Below, one piece after another: positions 40,174 to 48,221 of a stretch of 48,221 bases of DNA; the stretch's first letter is position 1; every line of letters begins with the position of its first letter. Both the position numbers and the translations under genes were made by a program. This DNA is from Anaerolineae bacterium. Lineage in GTDB: Bacteria > Chloroflexota > Anaerolineae > DRVO01. The notes beneath the pieces were generated by a model. It was not told the DNA's origin, searched no databases, and worked only from the letters and a program-made list of their open reading frames with translations. The DNA lies in the NCBI GenBank assembly GCA_013178015.1, contig JABLXR010000046.1, forward strand, positions 1 to 48,221, read 5' to 3'.

Positions 40174-43071
40174 TCAACCCCTCTTGACCTGTATGTCTGC
40201 CATGGCCCGCGCCAGTTCGTCGGCGCCGAATGGCTTCGGCAACACCGGTTGACCGGCGCTGCGAAGAAACTCGCTGGTGTCAACGCTGGCCATGTCTCCG
40301 GTGACAAAGATCACCTTCGAAGCCTGCTCAGGCCGCTCGGTGCGCAGCTGTTCCCACAGAGCGATGCCGCTCATGCCGGGCATCCTGATGTCTGAGATGA
40401 TCACGTCGTAGCGGCCCGACTCCAGCCGCTGCAGAGCCTCCACCGCGCTCCCCACTGATTCCACCTGACATCCCTTCTTGGTGAGCAATCGGTGGAGAAC
40501 GGCGGCCACCGCCACCTCGTCCTCCACCACCAGCACCCGCGTGCCGGCGTAGATCTCGGGCGGGGGCTCCGCCGGCTTATCCACCGAGGCGACAACCTTC
40601 TGCACCGGAAGCTCGATTATGAAGGTGGCTCCGCCACCCGGGGGGCTGTCCACCCAGATGCGTCCCCCGTGCCCACTGACGATGCCGTAGCAGATGGACA
40701 GCCCCAGACCCGTGCCGACGCCGACCTCTTTCGTGGTGAAGAAGGGATCGAATATCCGCCCGGCGATCTCTGGTGCCACGCCCGGACCATCGTCCTCTAT
40801 GGATATCCGGATCACATCGGGCCGAGCTAGCCGACTGGTGACCGTGATCTTGCCTCGATCCCTGATGCTCCTGATGGCTTGGTGCGCGTTCATGATCACG
40901 TTCAAGAACACTTGCTGGAGCTGAGAGCTATCCGCTGCCGTGAAGGGCAGATCGGGCTCGAGCTGCGTCTCTACCGTGATGTTGTCCACCCGAAGCTGGT
41001 AAGCCTGTATCTCGATGGTCTGGCGGATGATCTCGTTCACATCCACCATGCGCCTCTCAGTGCGCTGCCTTCTAGCGAACGTGAGCAGGTTGCGCACGAT
41101 GCGGCGGGAGCGCTCGGCCGAGCGCAGTATGTTCTCCACGTCCTTGCGCGTCTGCTCATCGGCGAGCTCGGAGCGCAGAAGCTCAGCGTAGCCGATGACC
41201 GCAGTCAGAGGGTTGTTCAGTTCATGCGCCACACCACTCACCAACTCGCCCACCGCCGACAGCTTCTCGGCTTGGACTAGCTGGTCCTGCATCTCCTGAA
41301 GCTTGCGCATCTCTGCCCGCAGATGGTCGTAGAGGTCGGCATTCTCCATGCTGACCCCTATCTGCCCCGCCAGCGTGGCAGCGATCTCCAGATCCTCTCG
41401 GCTGAAGAGGGCATCCTTGAGCTTCTGGCCCAGCACGACAACGCCTCGCAGGGCCCCCTTGACCACCACCGGAGCCCAGAGGGCTAGACGCTCGTCGTCA
41501 AGTAGCTGCCGCTCCACCGGATCAAGAGCCACGCCTTGCAGTCTTTGCTGCAGCCCTTCTCTCCTCTGAGGCGAGCCATGGTCCACCAGGCTCCGAGCCA
41601 GGGCTCCATCCATGTCCAGCCCGGCGCCAGCATCCAGCACTGGGTTGGCCCAGCCTGCGCTCGCCTCCAGTGCCAGGTGCCCGCCATCCTTGCGAGTGCT
41701 CAGAAGCATGGCTCCTGCCAGGTTCATCCGCCGACACAGAGTCTGGACCACCACCGCGCCCAACTCGTCCCGGCCCACCGCCTGGGTCAGGTCGCGCGAC
41801 ATCTCCGACACCACGGACTGGAAGTCATATGCCTGGCCATAGAAGGCGTGATGCACCAGACGCCGGGACCCACTGATGACGGGTACGTTCATCACCGCCA
41901 GCAGCACTGCTCCCAGCACCATACCCCCCATGATGGCGCTCTCCCCACCGCCCGGCCAGGCCAGCCGGGTCACCCACACGCAGCATAGCATAGTGGAGAC
42001 GAACACCAGACCGCTGATGACGGCGGCCGACACCGGTGGGAGGACCGTCTCTAACCCGTAGAAGCGACGCCGAGTGATGGCGAAGCCGTGGTACAACGGC
42101 AACACGGTGAGAAACAGGAGAGAGATCTCGGCCGACACAACCGCCCGGCCCATGAGGAACCGGGGGATCAAGTAGAGACCAAAGAGAGGCAGAACTGATA
42201 CGACCAACCCGAGTAGTGAGATTCGAGTGGCGGATCTTGCGCTTGCGTCAACGGTGCGCCGGAAGGACTGCCAGACGATGCACACGCCCAAGGCCGCCGA
42301 CCCCAGAAGCACCAGGAGACTGACCTGATAGGCGAGGTACCCATATCCCGAGCCGAGCAGATCCGGAGTCGGCAGGAGCAGCACCGGCACTAGCAGGATC
42401 GCCGCCACGCCGACGGAGGCCCACCGCACTGCTCTGACCCAGAACTCATCCCGGAATAGGGGGAAGCTGGAGGAGATGAACAAGACGCTCGGCACCAGAA
42501 GGACCAGACAAGCCTCGAAGCCTCGAATGGCCCATCCCAGCTGGGCCCCGGACAGGGACCCACAAGCAATGGCCCCCGCCAAGAGTTGGTAGAAGAGCGT
42601 GAACGAGAGCCCGGCCCGGGAACGCCGCTCGCCCACTGAGAAGGCCAGGCTCAAGACTGAGAAGAGCAGGGCTGTGCCTAGGTTGCTGAGCTTGAGGACG
42701 AGATCGCCCGCCGGGCGGGCGCCCAGCAGCATGGTCATCGTGGTGACCTCGCCCTGCCGTCGAACCGTTACCTCAACTGGATCCCCCACTTCCTCTGGGT
42801 AGAGGGGGAAGCGTTGCTCGGGCGGCACACCATTGAGCTCGAGGACCTCGTCTCCTATACGGATGCCGGCGCTGTGGGCAGGGCCGCCTTCGACGACTCG
42901 TACCACGGCAAACTGCGGCCCCATCCACTGCATGCCATCCCAAGGGGACTCGATCTGGTGCTGCAGACCAAGCGCCACCACTGCCAGCACCGGCAGCGCA
43001 CCCAGGATACCCAGCCAGTCCAGTGTTCTGGGTACCACACCCCGAGTGAGCCTGAGGACGTATCCCCACAT
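40174..43071 (-). CDS. Hybrid sensor histidine kinase: PDZ, multi-TM, GAF, HisKA, HATPase, receiver
   Basis: This 965-residue kinase has TM1 at about 18-36, then an external PDZ-like domain (about 50-115, VVEGGPAHSAGIRIGDEVLELNGV). About eight TMs follow (125-400), then a GAF-like region (about 425-575) and a coiled segment. HisKA has the phosphoacceptor His616 in GVAHELNNPL. HATPase shows N728 (NVIMNAHQA), DDGPGVAPE and GTGLGLS. A receiver domain ends it, with D894 (ISDIRMPGMSG) and K946 (VLPKPF). The PDZ plus multi-TM sensor resembles ComP-type kinases, but the HisKA subtype and attached receiver differ from ComP. It lies 11 bp after the ComQ-like isoprenyl synthase gene. No separate response regulator is adjacent; output may be via phosphotransfer to a distant protein. 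Confidence 0.88.
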   Translation of the reverse strand: MWGYVLRLTRGVVPRTLDWLGILGALPVLAVVALGLQHQIESPWDGMQWMGPQFAVVRVVEGGPAHSAGIRIGDEVLELNGVPPEQRFPLYPEEVGDPVEVTVRRQGEVTTMTMLLGARPAGDLVLKLSNLGTALLFSVLSLAFSVGERRSRAGLSFTLFYQLLAGAIACGSLSGAQLGWAIRGFEACLVLLVPSVLFISSSFPLFRDEFWVRAVRWASVGVAAILLVPVLLLPTPDLLGSGYGYLAYQVSLLVLLGSAALGVCIVWQSFRRTVDASARSATRISLLGLVVSVLPLFGLYLIPRFLMGRAVVSAEISLLFLTVLPLYHGFAITRRRFYGLETVLPPVSAAVISGLVFVSTMLCCVWVTRLAWPGGGESAIMGGMVLGAVLLAVMNVPVISGSRRLVHHAFYGQAYDFQSVVSEMSRDLTQAVGRDELGAVVVQTLCRRMNLAGAMLLSTRKDGGHLALEASAGWANPVLDAGAGLDMDGALARSLVDHGSPQRREGLQQRLQGVALDPVERQLLDDERLALWAPVVVKGALRGVVVLGQKLKDALFSREDLEIAATLAGQIGVSMENADLYDHLRAEMRKLQEMQDQLVQAEKLSAVGELVSGVAHELNNPLTAVIGYAELLRSELADEQTRKDVENILRSAERSRRIVRNLLTFARRQRTERRMVDVNEIIRQTIEIQAYQLRVDNITVETQLEPDLPFTAADSSQLQQVFLNVIMNAHQAIRSIRDRGKITVTSRLARPDVIRISIEDDGPGVAPEIAGRIFDPFFTTKEVGVGTGLGLSICYGIVSGHGGRIWVDSPPGGGATFIIELPVQKVVASVDKPAEPPPEIYAGTRVLVVEDEVAVAAVLHRLLTKKGCQVESVGSAVEALQRLESGRYDVIISDIRMPGMSGIALWEQLRTERPEQASKVIFVTGDMASVDTSEFLRSAGQPVLPKPFGADELARAMADIQVKRG

Positions 43072-43082
43072 GGCGAGCCGGG

Positions 43083-44045
43083 TCAGGCGCAGAGGGTGTC
43101 GCCCCCGGCCGGGTCGAGCCGGTCAAGCACTCCGGCCAGCGCCCGCACTCCGGGCGACGATGACAGCAGCACAGAAGAGGAAAGCAGACTGCGAGCGCGC
43201 AGTGCCCCGGCCGAGGCCCGAATGGACAGATACCTCATGGCGCCCATGCCTTCCAGAAGCAGACACAGGGACTCAGCGGCTTCGGAGTCACCATTGCCGG
43301 CCGCAGCGGCCAGAGAGGTAAGAGACTGCACCTCTTCCTCGTTGCCCACGGAGAGACCGTAGGCCAGCGGGAGCGCCACCGAGCGAATGTCGCCCACGTC
43401 CCGTGCTCGTAGCCCCAGTGCATCATCCATCAATTGCACCGTCTCGCCGATGCACTGACCCAGCTCCGTCAGGACCTCCACTGCCTCCGCGCTCGCGCCC
43501 CCAGAGATCGCGCCAGCGCGACAGGCAAGAGCGAAGGGACGGGCGCCTTTCTTCTGCAGCACTTCCCACGCCCAGGGCAGCACCTTCTCGCCCTCTGGCG
43601 GGGGCTGCATCCCCAACTCCTGCCCTGCGGCTACCTCGAGGCTGTATCGGTAGAACTCGGCCGCCAGAGAGACCCTAGTGGAGGACTGGCCATCAGCGCC
43701 AGAGCCAGCCAGGCACCCCTGGGCGGCGAACACCAGGCTGGTCGCCGTGTTCAGGATGCTGGGGGTAGAGACAGCGGAACCCAGGATGCTGGGATCGCCG
43801 TCCTGGAGGTCATCCAACAGCTTGGCTGCTAGGTAGAGGCCACACCAAGCAGCAGCGACATCAAGGGTAAGGCGACTTGCGCCGCCGACAGCCTCGGCCG
43901 CCCAGACGGGCAGCAACACCGGGAAGTCACGGGTAATGGCTCGCCCCCACGCCCGCCTGACCAACTGACCGAGGCGGCCCCGGGGAAGTGGAGAGACGGG
44001 CTCGATCGCCTCTTGGAGGCGGTCGCACACCTCCTGCCTCGTCAA
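43083..44045 (-). CDS. Polyprenyl synthetase-like class 1 isoprenoid enzyme (ComQ-like)
   Basis: This 320-residue, all-helical protein has a first Asp-rich motif KLLDDLQDGD (D78, D79, D82), intact for Mg-diphosphate binding. The second motif reads QLMDDALGLRARD (D207, D208), so the usual third Asp of DDxxD is missing. A KKGARPFALACRAGA segment matches the K-T/A region between the motifs. Degenerate second motifs fit ComQ-like enzymes or divergent prenyl synthases rather than housekeeping geranylgeranyl diphosphate synthase. TTG 44045 is preferred because AAGGAGGAGG lies 5 nt upstream; GTG 44078 has no ribosome site. The histidine kinase gene follows by 11 bp, so the two are probably co-translated. 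Confidence 0.72.
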   Translation of the reverse strand: MTRQEVCDRLQEAIEPVSPLPRGRLGQLVRRAWGRAITRDFPVLLPVWAAEAVGGASRLTLDVAAAWCGLYLAAKLLDDLQDGDPSILGSAVSTPSILNTATSLVFAAQGCLAGSGADGQSSTRVSLAAEFYRYSLEVAAGQELGMQPPPEGEKVLPWAWEVLQKKGARPFALACRAGAISGGASAEAVEVLTELGQCIGETVQLMDDALGLRARDVGDIRSVALPLAYGLSVGNEEEVQSLTSLAAAAGNGDSEAAESLCLLLEGMGAMRYLSIRASAGALRARSLLSSSVLLSSSPGVRALAGVLDRLDPAGGDTLCA

Positions 44046-44209
44046 TGCGGCCTCCTCCTTGATCACTCGGCCGGTCACACAGGAGCATCCGTCGGCCAGA
44101 ACCGGCGTCCCGCTGCTCGCCCCCTGCTCACCGAATACAGAGTGATACAGGCCGGCAGATCAGCCCGTCTTCTCACCGGCCGCCACCGGCCCTGGTGTTG
44201 CCTTCTGGG

Positions 44210-45931
44210 CTACTCCACTGGGGCAGTCTCTTCCGCGGGAGAGGCGCCGTTACTGCCCACCAGCCCTTTCCACTCTCCGTGTAAGCCTTCCTCGGTGACG
44301 CCGTAATAGTAGTGAGTCGCCCCCGATTCGTCCAGCTGAGTCAGGTTGTACTTGGTCCGGTTACCGCGCTTGTACGACTTCCACAGCCCCAGATCGCCCT
44401 CCCACTTTACGGGCGGCTGCTGCCGGGACGCCTTCTCATGCTCCTTGATGGCATAGCGCCACAGGCGTCGAGCGGACTCCTTGGTCACGTCGCGCACCAC
44501 GCTACGATTGCGCAAGTCTCGCAGAGCGTGATACCGGATCCCCTTGCGCTCCTCCGTGCTCACCACCTCCACGCCAGTACGCGGAGGGGCCACTCGGAAC
44601 GACGCCGCCTCGCGCGCGCCCGAACCATTGCCGCTGTCATCGCCGCCCTGGGCCTCACCTGACTGACGGGAGATGATCTGCACGATCTCGTCCCGTACAG
44701 CCAGGCTGGTCTCCGTCTCCTGCCGCACGTAGATCTTGCTCCCCTCCAGCGTGTACGGCTTGGACGGCCCGTTGGGCACCGACACTCGAAGCACGGTCTT
44801 GCCCTTCGTCTTCATGGGCGTGATGGCCACCTCCAGCGACGGCGTTATCCGGCGCTGGATGTCGGCCTTCAGCGTGGCCATCGCCTCCTCGACCCGGTCC
44901 ACCCCTTTCACTGGAGCAGAAGGACGGCCCGAGACGCCCACGTAGGTGGTGCCGCCGTTCGTGTTGGCGAAGGCCACCACGTCGCGGAGGATGGCATGCA
45001 GCCTCCCCCCGCGTCGGCTCATGCTCTCGTGGAACGATTGCACGATGCTGGGGCCGGCCTCACGAGCAGCCTGCACGTAGTCGAAGGGCTCGCGCGCGGC
45101 CCGGTAGGGCCGCATGCGGGCGAAGTCCTCGCTCTCGAACACCTGCTTCAGTGCCTCGAAACTCACTTCAGGCAGGAGCACCTCCATGGCCCGCCCACCG
45201 ACTCCAAACTGCGACCGGTCGGTAGGGTCGTCGTCCAACCGATGCGCGTCGGACCCCTGCACTATGTGCATGCGCCTGGGATACTCAGGACGCGAGCCAT
45301 CGAAGAACTCGGCAGTGCGGTGACGACGGCCGCTCTCGAGATCCGTAACCTCAAGCGCATGCAAGTTCCGATCCTGGGTGAAGGCAATCTTCGTCTGGCC
45401 GCCGAAGTTCAGCCCCTGCAGCGCCACCCCATGCGTGGAGTTCGCATGCGCGGCAATGACGATGCCGCCAGCCTCCCTCAGCATCCGGTAGGCGGTGAGC
45501 ACGTCTACCGTCGCGCCCACCTCTCCGGTGCCCTCATCCAACCGGGCGGAGGGCACGCCCATGTTCAGCAACAGGTGCTCCAGGTCCCGGACCGTGGTCT
45601 CTCTAGAGAAGATCCCCAGAATGTGGAACCCAAAGGTAGCCGTGAACTCCACCCCCGGAAGCACCAGAATCTTGCGCATTAGGCGTCGGTACTCCTGGAG
45701 GTGGTCCCTCTCCGGGCCCTGGAGCCGGTCCAGGCTTTCCAGCAGCTCCAGGTCCCGGATCTCGCTTAGCAATTCCGCGTAGCCACGCACGGTGTTGTGA
45801 TCCGCGATGGCCAGTATGTCGAGCCTCTTCTCCTCTGCTTTCCTCAGGATATCGAGGTAGCTCACCTCGGCCTGTCGGTAGCATTCCGAGGCCGGGGTGT
45901 GCACGTGCAAATCAAACCTATACCAATCCAT
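44210..45931 (-). CDS. PHP phosphoesterase fused to an AlbA/Schlafen-type ATP-binding domain
   Basis: The product is 573 residues. The PHP domain (1-285) has [10 protein letters not shown] (H9, H11), AIADHNTV (D44, H45), [16 protein letters not shown] (E95), [10 protein letters not shown] (H162) and VQGSDAHRL (D228, H230). The second domain (about 290-430) has [19 protein letters not shown] and [19 protein letters not shown], the AlbA_2 (divergent AAA/Schlafen-like) signature. A Gly/Ser/Ala linker and a C-terminal region of unknown type (about 455-573) with [25 protein letters not shown] follow. ATG 45931 lies 14 bp inside the end of lon, so translation is coupled. It could act on nucleic acid or nucleotides; the target is unknown. 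Confidence 0.82.
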
Positions 45932-48221
45932 TCTCTCCTTCTTCAAACCTCACCGAAGACCCTTCCGCCACGGTGGTGCCGGCTGGCTCTTCCTCGGTCT
46001 CAACCTCAAGTGAGAGCGCCGTTCGTAGTGCGTCTTCCACCCGGTCTACCAGGACGAAGCGCATGTCGTCACGTACGCTCTCGGGAATGTCATCTAAGTC
46101 TCTCTCATTGCGCGCCGGCAGCACCACCGTGCTCAGCCCGGCTCTGTGTGCCGCCAGCACCTTCTGCTTGATGCCGCCCACCGGCAGCACCTGCCCCCGT
46201 AGGGTCACCTCTCCGGTCATCGCCACGTCGCTGCTGACTGGCTTGCCCGTAAACAAGGAGACCAGGGCGGCCGTCATGGTGATCCCCGCAGACGGACCGT
46301 CTTTCGGTACGGCGCCAGCCGGCACATGTATGTGAATGTCGCTCTGGCGCAGGGAGTCCTGGTCTATCCCCAGGTCGCGAGCTCGCGACCGGACGTAAGT
46401 CAGCGCCGCTTGCGCCGACTCGCGCATCACTTCCCCCAACTGACCCGTGAGCGTCAATCGCCCCTCGCCAGGCATGCGCGCCGCCTCGATAAAGGTTATG
46501 TCACCTCCGGCCGCGGTGATCACCAGCCCCGTGGCCACGCCGGGGATCTGCGTGCGCTCTGCTACCTCCTGGTAGTACACTGGCTTGCCGAGATACTCGG
46601 GGACGTCCTCTGCCTCGATCAGCACCTGCCCGGTTAGCTCTCCGGCGCCTGCGCGCACTGCTACCCGCCGGGCGATGGCGCCGATCCTTCGCTCCAGCTC
46701 ACGCACCCCTGCCTCACGCGTATACTGCCGCACGATGCGCCGCAGAGCAGCCTCAGTGAAGTCCAGCTCTTCGGGCCGAAGCCCATTCTCAGCGATCTGC
46801 CGCCTTACCAGATACTGGCGCGCGATCTGGATCTTCTCCTCCTCCGTGTACCCATCGAGCTCCAGGATCTCCATCCGGTCTCGCAGCGGCTCCGGGATCG
46901 GCTCCAACAGGTTGGCGGTGGTGATGAACAGGACCTGCGACAGATCGAAAGGCACGTCCAAGTAGTTGTCCCGGAACTCTACGTTCTGCTCCGGGTCCAG
47001 CACTTCCAGCAGCGCCGAGGCCGGGTCGCCCCGGAAATCGCGCCCTAGCTTGTCCACCTCATCCAACATCATGACCGGGTTCCGGGTGCCCACCCGCCGT
47101 ATGGCTTGGATGATGCGCCCCGGCATCGCCCCAATGTACGTGCGCCGATGACCGCGAATCTCCGCTTCGTCGTGCAGCCCACCCAGAGAGGTACGGGTGA
47201 ACTGGCGCCCCATGGCTCGAGCGATGGAACGCCCCAGCGATGTCTTGCCCACCCCAGGGGGTCCCACGAAGCACAGTATGGCGCCCTCACGTTCCCGCCT
47301 GATGTAGTCTCGTCTCTCCTCTTCTGCCTCTCCCTCCCGCCGACGCTCCGCCCGTAGCTTGCGGACCGCTAGGTACTCGATGATCCGCTCCTTGATCTTG
47401 TCCAGATCGTAGTGATCCTCGTCCAGCACAGTCCGGGCATGCTCCAGGTCCAGCCGGTCTTCGGTAACCACCGACCAGGGCAAACTAGCCAGCCATTCCA
47501 GGTAGGTGCGGATGACACCGTACTCGGCTGCTGCCGGTGGCAGAGTCGCTAGACGCCCGAGCTCTCTCTCCGCTTCCCGCCTTGCCTCCTCTGGCAGGCC
47601 TGCCCTCTCAATCTGCTCCCGCAGACGAGCAACCTCCGCCGTCTGCTCGTCCGTCTCCCCCAGTTCGCGCTGAATGGCCTTCAGCTGCTGCCGCAGGAAG
47701 TACTCCCGCTGGGTCTTCTCCATCTCCGACATGGCCTCGGACTGGATCTTGCGGCCTAGCTCAAGGACCTCCAGCTCGCTACTAAGCACCTCGGTCAGGC
47801 GGCGAAGTTTCTCCTTGACACTGTCCATCTCCAGGATAGCCTGGGCCTCGGCTGGCTGCATCTGGGTGCTTGTGGCCACCAGGTAGGCCAGCTGCCGATT
47901 ATCATCCAGGTTCATGGCCGCGACCGACAGCTCGTCGGGCAAGTACGGCACCATAGACACCAAGCGCTGGAACTGAGAGACGATGTTGCGGGCCAGAGCC
48001 CTCGTCTCCACATCGTCCTCTACCTGTTCGGGCAATGCCTCGACCCGGGCCCTCGGGTACGGTTCCAGGCTCAAGAACTCGACGATCCGGAATCGCTCCA
48101 ACGCCTGAACCATCAGCCGCAGGCTGCCATCTGGCTGACGCACCATCCGATGCACCACGATGGTCGTTCCCACGCGATACAGGTCGTTCTCGGCCAGCCC
48201 CCTCTCTTCATCCCCCTCCCC
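45918..48221 (-). CDS. lon: ATP-dependent protease Lon (5' partial)
   Basis: The gene is open to the right edge of the window, and the frame encodes the end of the N-domain strand ([18 protein letters not shown]), so the true start lies outside; the GTG at 48173 is internal. Recognised parts are the N-terminal substrate-binding domain and coiled coil ([21 protein letters not shown]), the AAA+ module (Walker [10 protein letters not shown], Walker [12 protein letters not shown], arginine region PLRDRMEIL), and the Ser-Lys peptidase domain ([11 protein letters not shown] with the catalytic Ser, [14 protein letters not shown] with the catalytic Lys). Lon degrades misfolded and regulatory proteins in the cytosol. 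An acidic tail of about 30 residues precedes the stop, which overlaps the downstream PHP-AlbA gene by 14 bp. Confidence 0.97.

Follow-up and report, generated by a model that had tools for sequence, protein, structure and literature searches.

Does a prenyl synthase-like gene placed beside a membrane-bound histidine kinase gene in a Chloroflexota genome encode a ComQ/ComP-like signalling pair outside Firmicutes? The question is raised by a contig of 48,221 nucleotides (JABLXR010000046.1, hereafter the window) from a 4.57-Mb assembly of an Anaerolineae bacterium, in which an initial annotation, made from the letters alone, had pointed to such a pair as a possibility. In a 2014 census of 9,590 genomes, ComQXPA-like loci were found in Firmicutes only (PMC4008528), and we found no report of ComQXPA-like signalling in Chloroflexota in the open-access literature. 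Our analysis supports the proposal, and we consider it likely, given the homologies, residue pattern and precursor genes described below, that the pair supplies the enzyme and the receptor for signalling by a prenylated peptide, in a system of the ComQXPA/PalPXQ type.

When 396 genomes of the class were searched with a profile, a divergent synthase group scored above the housekeeping ones, and we analyzed the neighbourhoods of 52 synthases of this subfamily, using 24 housekeeping synthases as comparison. In the window, the pair comprises the following features.

43083–44045, minus strand: predicted gene for a ComQ-like prenyltransferase of the trans-isoprenyl diphosphate synthase (trans-IDS) type, based on PF00348, a ComQ profile match, a ribosome-binding site (RBS) and the AlphaFold fold.
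43800–43814, minus strand: first Asp-rich motif (FARM), DDLQD, the predicted allylic diphosphate/Mg site, with D1 and D5 in 52/52 kinase-linked synthases.
43413–43427, minus strand: second Asp-rich region, DDALG, preceded by a conserved Gln (QLMDD); this Gln and the second Asp are each found in 52/52.
40174–43071, minus strand: ComP-like hybrid sensor histidine kinase of 965 aa, with Pfam PDZ, GAF, HisKA, HATPase_c and Response_reg matches and an hhalign match to ComP.
42733–42915, minus strand: predicted external PDZ domain between transmembrane helices (TM) 1 and 2, residues ~53–113 (PF17820, E 2e-7; DegS/AlgW-like model).
41839–42714, minus strand: multi-TM sensor part, about nine helices after the PDZ in the model (hydropathy, AlphaFold helices, homology to the ComP TM region).
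41341–41769, minus strand: GAF domain (PF13492, E 4.5e-6; PF01590, E 3e-5).
40600–41253, minus strand: HisKA and HATPase_c kinase core (PF00512, E 6e-19; PF02518, E 8e-26).
40204–40536, minus strand: C-terminal receiver domain (PF00072, E 2e-23).

A same-strand kinase gene lies directly downstream of 40 of the 52 synthases, and in 33 of these 40 pairs the gap does not exceed 20 bp, the genes mostly overlapping or touching. Among the other 12, six have a kinase nearby in another position (in one of them, L036, reading by hand also places a kinase directly downstream), three lie at contig ends and three have no kinase. By comparison, a kinase ORF of any sort was found near 1 of the 24 housekeeping synthases (roughly 1.5 kb per side). 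The pairing is not due to chance, because about 40 loci recur against this single housekeeping locus. Conservation of the gene pair, a check that the initial annotation had proposed, is thus borne out. The relatives include Thermoflexales, Anaerolineales and other Chloroflexota metagenome-assembled genomes. Starting from the sensor, 24 matches at E<1e-50 were obtained in 22 genomes, of which 22 adjoin a synthase, one does not and one was not inspected. A receiver/LuxR protein is encoded within 4.2 kb in 29 loci, and many relatives combine a HisKA_3 kinase with a LuxR-type regulator, the classes to which ComP and ComA belong. The window genome itself holds a second complete module on contig C31 (L043; G000:C31, 38000–51000), consisting of a synthase, a HisKA_3 multi-TM kinase that has lost the PDZ, and a LuxR regulator. 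The region upstream of this second module encodes a radical SAM/SPASM protein and a formyltransferase.

The window synthase ORF spans 43083–44078 on the minus strand, with GTG at 44078 as an alternative start; the TTG at 44045, which follows an AAGGAGG RBS, is the plausible start. The protein matches the Pfam polyprenyl_synt family (PF00348) at E 7e-8, and its AlphaFold model (predicted local distance difference test score, pLDDT, 84) adopts an isoprenoid synthase fold matching many isoprenoid synthases, the tryptophan prenyltransferase Ord1 among them. Two strong full-profile synthases are encoded elsewhere in the window genome. The enzyme had been described as a divergent class 1 isoprenoid enzyme with one intact and one incomplete Asp motif, 11 bp from the kinase, and each element of this description is borne out: the Pfam match is accompanied by a position outside the housekeeping clade, DDLQD is intact while the second motif reads DDALG, and the intergenic gap is exactly 11 bp. 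The incomplete second motif is not unusual, because G occupies this position in 15 of the 24 housekeeping synthases of the class as well, and we rejected it as a diagnostic trait.

In farnesyl diphosphate (FPP) synthase structures, residues of the GKRxRP, RRG and TGK motifs bind isopentenyl diphosphate (IPP) and diphosphates. In alignment with the 24 housekeeping enzymes, all 52 kinase-linked synthases have lost the GKRxRP Lys/Arg pattern, the two Arg residues of RRG and the TGK Lys, while all 52 keep D1 and D5 of the FARM, the Gln of GQ and the catalytic Lys, as well as the second Asp of the second motif and the Gln that precedes this motif. They do not have the IPP-binding Lys/Arg of GKRxRP and the second RRG Arg, which occur in 24/24 housekeeping enzymes and by which such a synthase is recognized, and show the FARM together with a degenerate IPP site, as expected of a ComQ homologue. 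Four annotated Bacillaceae ComQ database copies (L119–L122), taken as reference, display the same losses and retentions, and the profile of the kinase-linked family matches ComQ at E 2.4e-28. In a quick tree, all housekeeping synthases form one clade (support 100), apart from the kinase-linked synthases and ComQ; the phylogeny suggested at the outset thus separates the synthase from housekeeping FPP and geranylgeranyl diphosphate (GGPP) synthases. As the pair is conserved too, neither of the outcomes named in the initial annotation as refuting the proposal occurred. The tree gives no settled order among the kinase-linked synthases and ComQ, whose branches are long. In Ord1 and PalQ, recognition of Trp has been ascribed to the Gln before the second motif (PMC13290415); this Gln is also present in housekeeping enzymes. 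As far as can be read from sequence, the kinase-linked enzyme is homologous to ComQ and is not a chain elongator. A polyprenyl-synthetase-like protein with the same IPP-site losses is also encoded on the cyanobacterial plasmid pREC3 of Acaryochloris marina (L123, 5833–6780), where no kinase is adjacent.

The kinase is organized as TM1, PDZ, about nine more helices, GAF, HisKA, HATPase_c and receiver. Hydropathy predicts nine TM helices, and the AlphaFold model about 10, with a moderate overall pLDDT of 69.5 for the sensor and of about 77–92 for the PDZ part, which resembles the PDZ domains of DegS and AlgW, binders of peptide C-termini. In Bacillus amyloliquefaciens, ComP is predicted to cross the membrane with 10 TM helices, the first two of which flank an external PDZ (PMC9620489), an arrangement that the window kinase shares. 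When eleven of the kinase sensors were aligned by hhalign to those of two ComP proteins, the match had a probability of 99 and E 5.6e-18 over 320 columns covering both the PDZ and TM parts, indicating that the PDZ/multi-TM sensor is a profile-level homologue of ComP. Together with the ComQ match, this result supports the pair proposed in the initial annotation. The external PDZ with about nine TMs and the kinase's own receiver in place of ComA, both noted there, are confirmed. The window kinase has HisKA and its own receiver rather than HisKA_3 and a separate LuxR-type ComA; the latter combination is found in the second copy of the window genome and in many relatives.

No ComX-like ORF lies between synthase and kinase, as the genes mostly overlap or touch and the gaps show no evident shared ORF. 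A ComX profile had no match in 23 Chloroflexota genomes (positive controls 1e-26), and PF05952 had none in the window genome, for which the control was weak. In relatives, however, the synthase is directly preceded by a small same-strand ORF with a Trp near the end. Counting ORFs of this kind (39/49 loci, compared with 27.6 expected after dinucleotide shuffling and 26 when the opposite strand was read) was dropped as too weak, and we therefore used leave-one-out profiles, searching all ORFs of each of 49 testable loci at a cut-off of E<1e-3. These held-out profiles picked the upstream same-strand ORF in 37/49 loci and no other ORF at that level. The search for small ORFs with a near-C-terminal Trp in relatives, also proposed initially, thus succeeded, with precursors located upstream of the synthase, or unlinked to it, and not between the genes for enzyme and kinase.

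The precursors form two families, A and B, each with an N-terminal leader and a core Trp. Family A (alignment A9, 19 members) has an invariant Met1 and one invariant Trp; 13/19 members match an NHLP-clan model of ribosomally synthesized and post-translationally modified peptides (RiPPs), and eight match Frankia_peptide. Family B (alignment A10) typically ends in W-x-G-W-x and matched no NCBIfam model. Homology to ComX/PF05952 could not be established for these precursors (hhalign probability 10% with E 0.003 for family A, and 0.2% for family B). Several precursors carry tandem cores, namely PAGGPNGPWGWQFMSE (L085), HASGPNGPWDWQFGSRDV (L091) and AEGPFPGWQGMEL (L082); L087 also has core repeats, and in the second module of the window genome (L043, 5729–6019) a GPQEAWAVSPMA-like Trp core unit occurs three times. 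At locus L041, a second, weakly matching precursor-like ORF (...SWEWATPLPFIQAEDGG) lies at the end opposite the synthase, on the opposite strand of the locus.

In the window, no precursor is linked to the module, only about 165 bp separating the synthase from a gene encoding a PHP-domain and Schlafen/AlbA_2 fusion (44210–45946, between Lon and the synthase). The statement that no ComX gene is visible thus stands for the window; elsewhere in the genome, a family-A search found a Trp-bearing precursor of 62 aa on contig C69 (2485–2673, minus strand), MTDLSKLVYKASKGELRIDELTEDAAALARFELSNEERVALQRHVRGGQWTNFVPMAEGGWI, with the end ...QWTNFVPMAEGGWI (...AEGGWI), while a family-B search of the genome had no match. 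An orthologue in a same-genus genome is likewise separate from the module. That of family member G002, with 36/62 residues identical to the C69 precursor (58%), is found 15 bp upstream of the synthase ORF, in the order X-Q-P. The three genes share the upstream CAGGAGTGGAAG (RBS), and the two same-genus genes differ by 6, 9 and 26 changes at the first, second and third codon positions, a distribution typical of protein-coding sequence. Since the orthologue adjoins the synthase in G002 and is unlinked in the same-genus genomes, the genus of the window seems to have lost the linkage; the PHP/AlbA gene is kept at its place in the same genus and absent from that place in G002. On C69 (L160, 2485–6060), the gene directly upstream of the precursor encodes a hybrid kinase of 1055 aa with GAF, PAS_4, HisKA and receiver domains. 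We found no PDZ in this kinase, which is a possible second partner of the precursor.

Related elements were observed outside this set. A cultured member of the Chloroflexota, Herpetosiphon aurantiacus DSM 785, carries on plasmid pHAU01 a related synthase-kinase-LuxR module (Haur_5070-5072) that is unrecognised in the annotation; the locus (L173, 4839–8922) comprises a LuxR regulator, an unannotated ComQ-like protein, a ComP-like kinase and a gene annotated as an abortive infection protein, and no Trp precursor was identified there. This strain is a possible experimental model. A 3.3-kb contig labelled Deltaproteobacteria (L132) encodes a LuxR regulator, a ComQ-like synthase and the start of a PDZ kinase, reflecting either horizontal transfer or misbinned Anaerolineae DNA. 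An ABC-transporter-like protein family is shared near the modules of L088, L093, L096, L099, L110, L114, L115 and L116 (Pfam-confirmed for L115 only) and is possibly an exporter or a regulated target.

The gene pair, its homologies, the residue pattern and the family and position of the precursors are read directly from the genomes, and from them we infer prenylation, processing, secretion, sensing and output as follows. The cell would make a small precursor, here from the 62-aa C69 ORF, in which a leader at the N-terminus is followed by a C-terminal core containing Trp, and the enzyme would bind an allylic diphosphate (geranyl diphosphate, FPP or longer) at its first Asp-rich motif and, having no IPP-binding residues, prenylate the core Trp. 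The leader would then be cut off and the lipopeptide exported and bound by the PDZ/multi-TM sensor, probably with its free C-terminus in the PDZ groove, thereby altering the phosphorylation state of the kinase. A separate LuxR-type regulator would provide the output in most relatives whose kinase is of the HisKA_3 class, while the window kinase would pass the phosphate to its own receiver and then to a further partner. With somewhat less confidence, although still favouring this view, we propose that such modules form a broad family of prenylated-Trp peptide pheromones in Chloroflexota, with RiPP-type leaders, tandem multi-core precursors and ComP-type receptors, joining RiPP maturation to ComQXPA signalling.

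The product may be a density signal or an autoinduced antimicrobial. That it is mainly an antimicrobial or another lipopeptide RiPP, the kinase serving as a nisin-type autoinduction or immunity sensor, is the least unlikely of the alternatives, if clearly behind the pheromone model: family A precursors carry NHLP-clan RiPP leaders, ABC transporter genes and radical SAM genes occur near some loci, and the core repeats (L082, L085, L087, L091, L043) suggest high product output, but genes dedicated to export or immunity are missing beside the module at most loci, the window included, and the receptor is of the ComP type. We find it improbable that the kinase senses a free isoprenoid (alcohol or terpene) produced by the synthase, the upstream peptides being unrelated. 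The intact allylic-diphosphate site and the lack of a linked precursor in the window are compatible with this idea; the conserved Trp precursor upstream in 37 loci, the ComQ pattern of kept and lost residues and the targeting of Trp residues by characterised trans-IDS-like prenyltransferases (PMC13290415) speak against it. The initial annotation had left the ligand as either an isoprenoid or a peptide encoded elsewhere, and the Trp precursor family with its C69 member strongly supports the peptide and does not favour the free isoprenoid.

Two further explanations are far less probable. A catalytically idle protein that senses prenyl diphosphate levels and directly regulates the kinase would fit the overlapping or touching genes, which suggest coupled expression, but we judge it very unlikely, as the first motif retains its metal-binding residues and precursors co-occur. 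An ordinary short-chain prenyl diphosphate synthase standing beside a kinase by accident, for which Pfam family membership and the isoprenoid synthase fold could be cited, is the most doubtful of all: its main prediction is already refuted by the loss of the IPP site in 52/52 and the separate clade, two strong synthases are available elsewhere in the genome, and the pair is conserved across families. For a ComQ/ComP-type system, several observations are nonetheless unfavourable. The window synthase alone matches the ComQ profile weakly (28.7 bits). Its second motif starts with Asp, as in 50/52 overall, and not with the N or G that ComQ needs at this position, where an N-to-D change strongly reduces ComQ activity (PMC5331326), so that the chemistry may differ. 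Related PDZ/TM sensors occur without an adjacent synthase, and weaker sensor matches include large proteins of this sort. Because the precursor is unlinked in the window's genus, its pairing with the window enzyme rests on orthology, and the precursors of the window genome and of the same family do not reach NHLP models, yet align with family A.

If the prenylated-peptide reading is correct, this would be the first ComQ/ComP-type peptide signalling reported in Chloroflexota, as far as open-access literature shows, and would provide many Trp prenyltransferase candidates with a variety of core sequences. A conserved multi-copy module would give testable signals for the abundant, mostly uncultured Anaerolineae, and would bear on whether ComX signalling arose from RiPP precursors.

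How do these modules compare with known systems? With housekeeping synthases (IspA/GGPPS/OctPPS), the kinase-linked enzymes share the fold, the FARM and the catalytic Lys and Gln, but they lack the GKR, RRG and GK residues for IPP and diphosphate, and they are linked to a kinase. With ComQXPA of Bacillus, the likeness covers a ComQ-type enzyme with a FARM and no IPP site, a precursor with Trp near the C-terminus, a ComP-type PDZ/multi-TM kinase, compact same-strand genes and, in most HisKA_3 relatives, a LuxR-type regulator. In contrast to ComQXPA, the precursor gene in Chloroflexota precedes that of the synthase (X-Q-P-A) or has no linkage to it, instead of lying between Q and P, the precursor's leader is NHLP-type or of a second, new family and not demonstrably ComX-like, tandem multi-core precursors exist, the second motif starts with D instead of N/G, and the kinase has a GAF domain, that of the window being a HisKA hybrid with its own receiver. 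Beside ComQXPA, the closest described system is, by analogy, PalP-PalX-PalQ of Paenibacillus alvei, which comprises a kinase, an NHLP precursor with a C-terminal Trp and a Trp prenyltransferase, PalQ, whose activity was shown in vitro (PMC10853753). PalPXQ as described is confined to Firmicutes, and PalQ needs Trp as the very last residue, whereas in Chloroflexota at least one further residue usually comes after the Trp (often WG, WI or WR), or the Trp sits in repeats, the window-genome peptide ending in GWI. With PalQ compared by description only, the Chloroflexota modules resemble PalPXQ in a histidine kinase, a precursor with a conserved Trp, which in 13/19 members of family A matches an NHLP-clan model, and a predicted trans-IDS-like Trp prenyltransferase.

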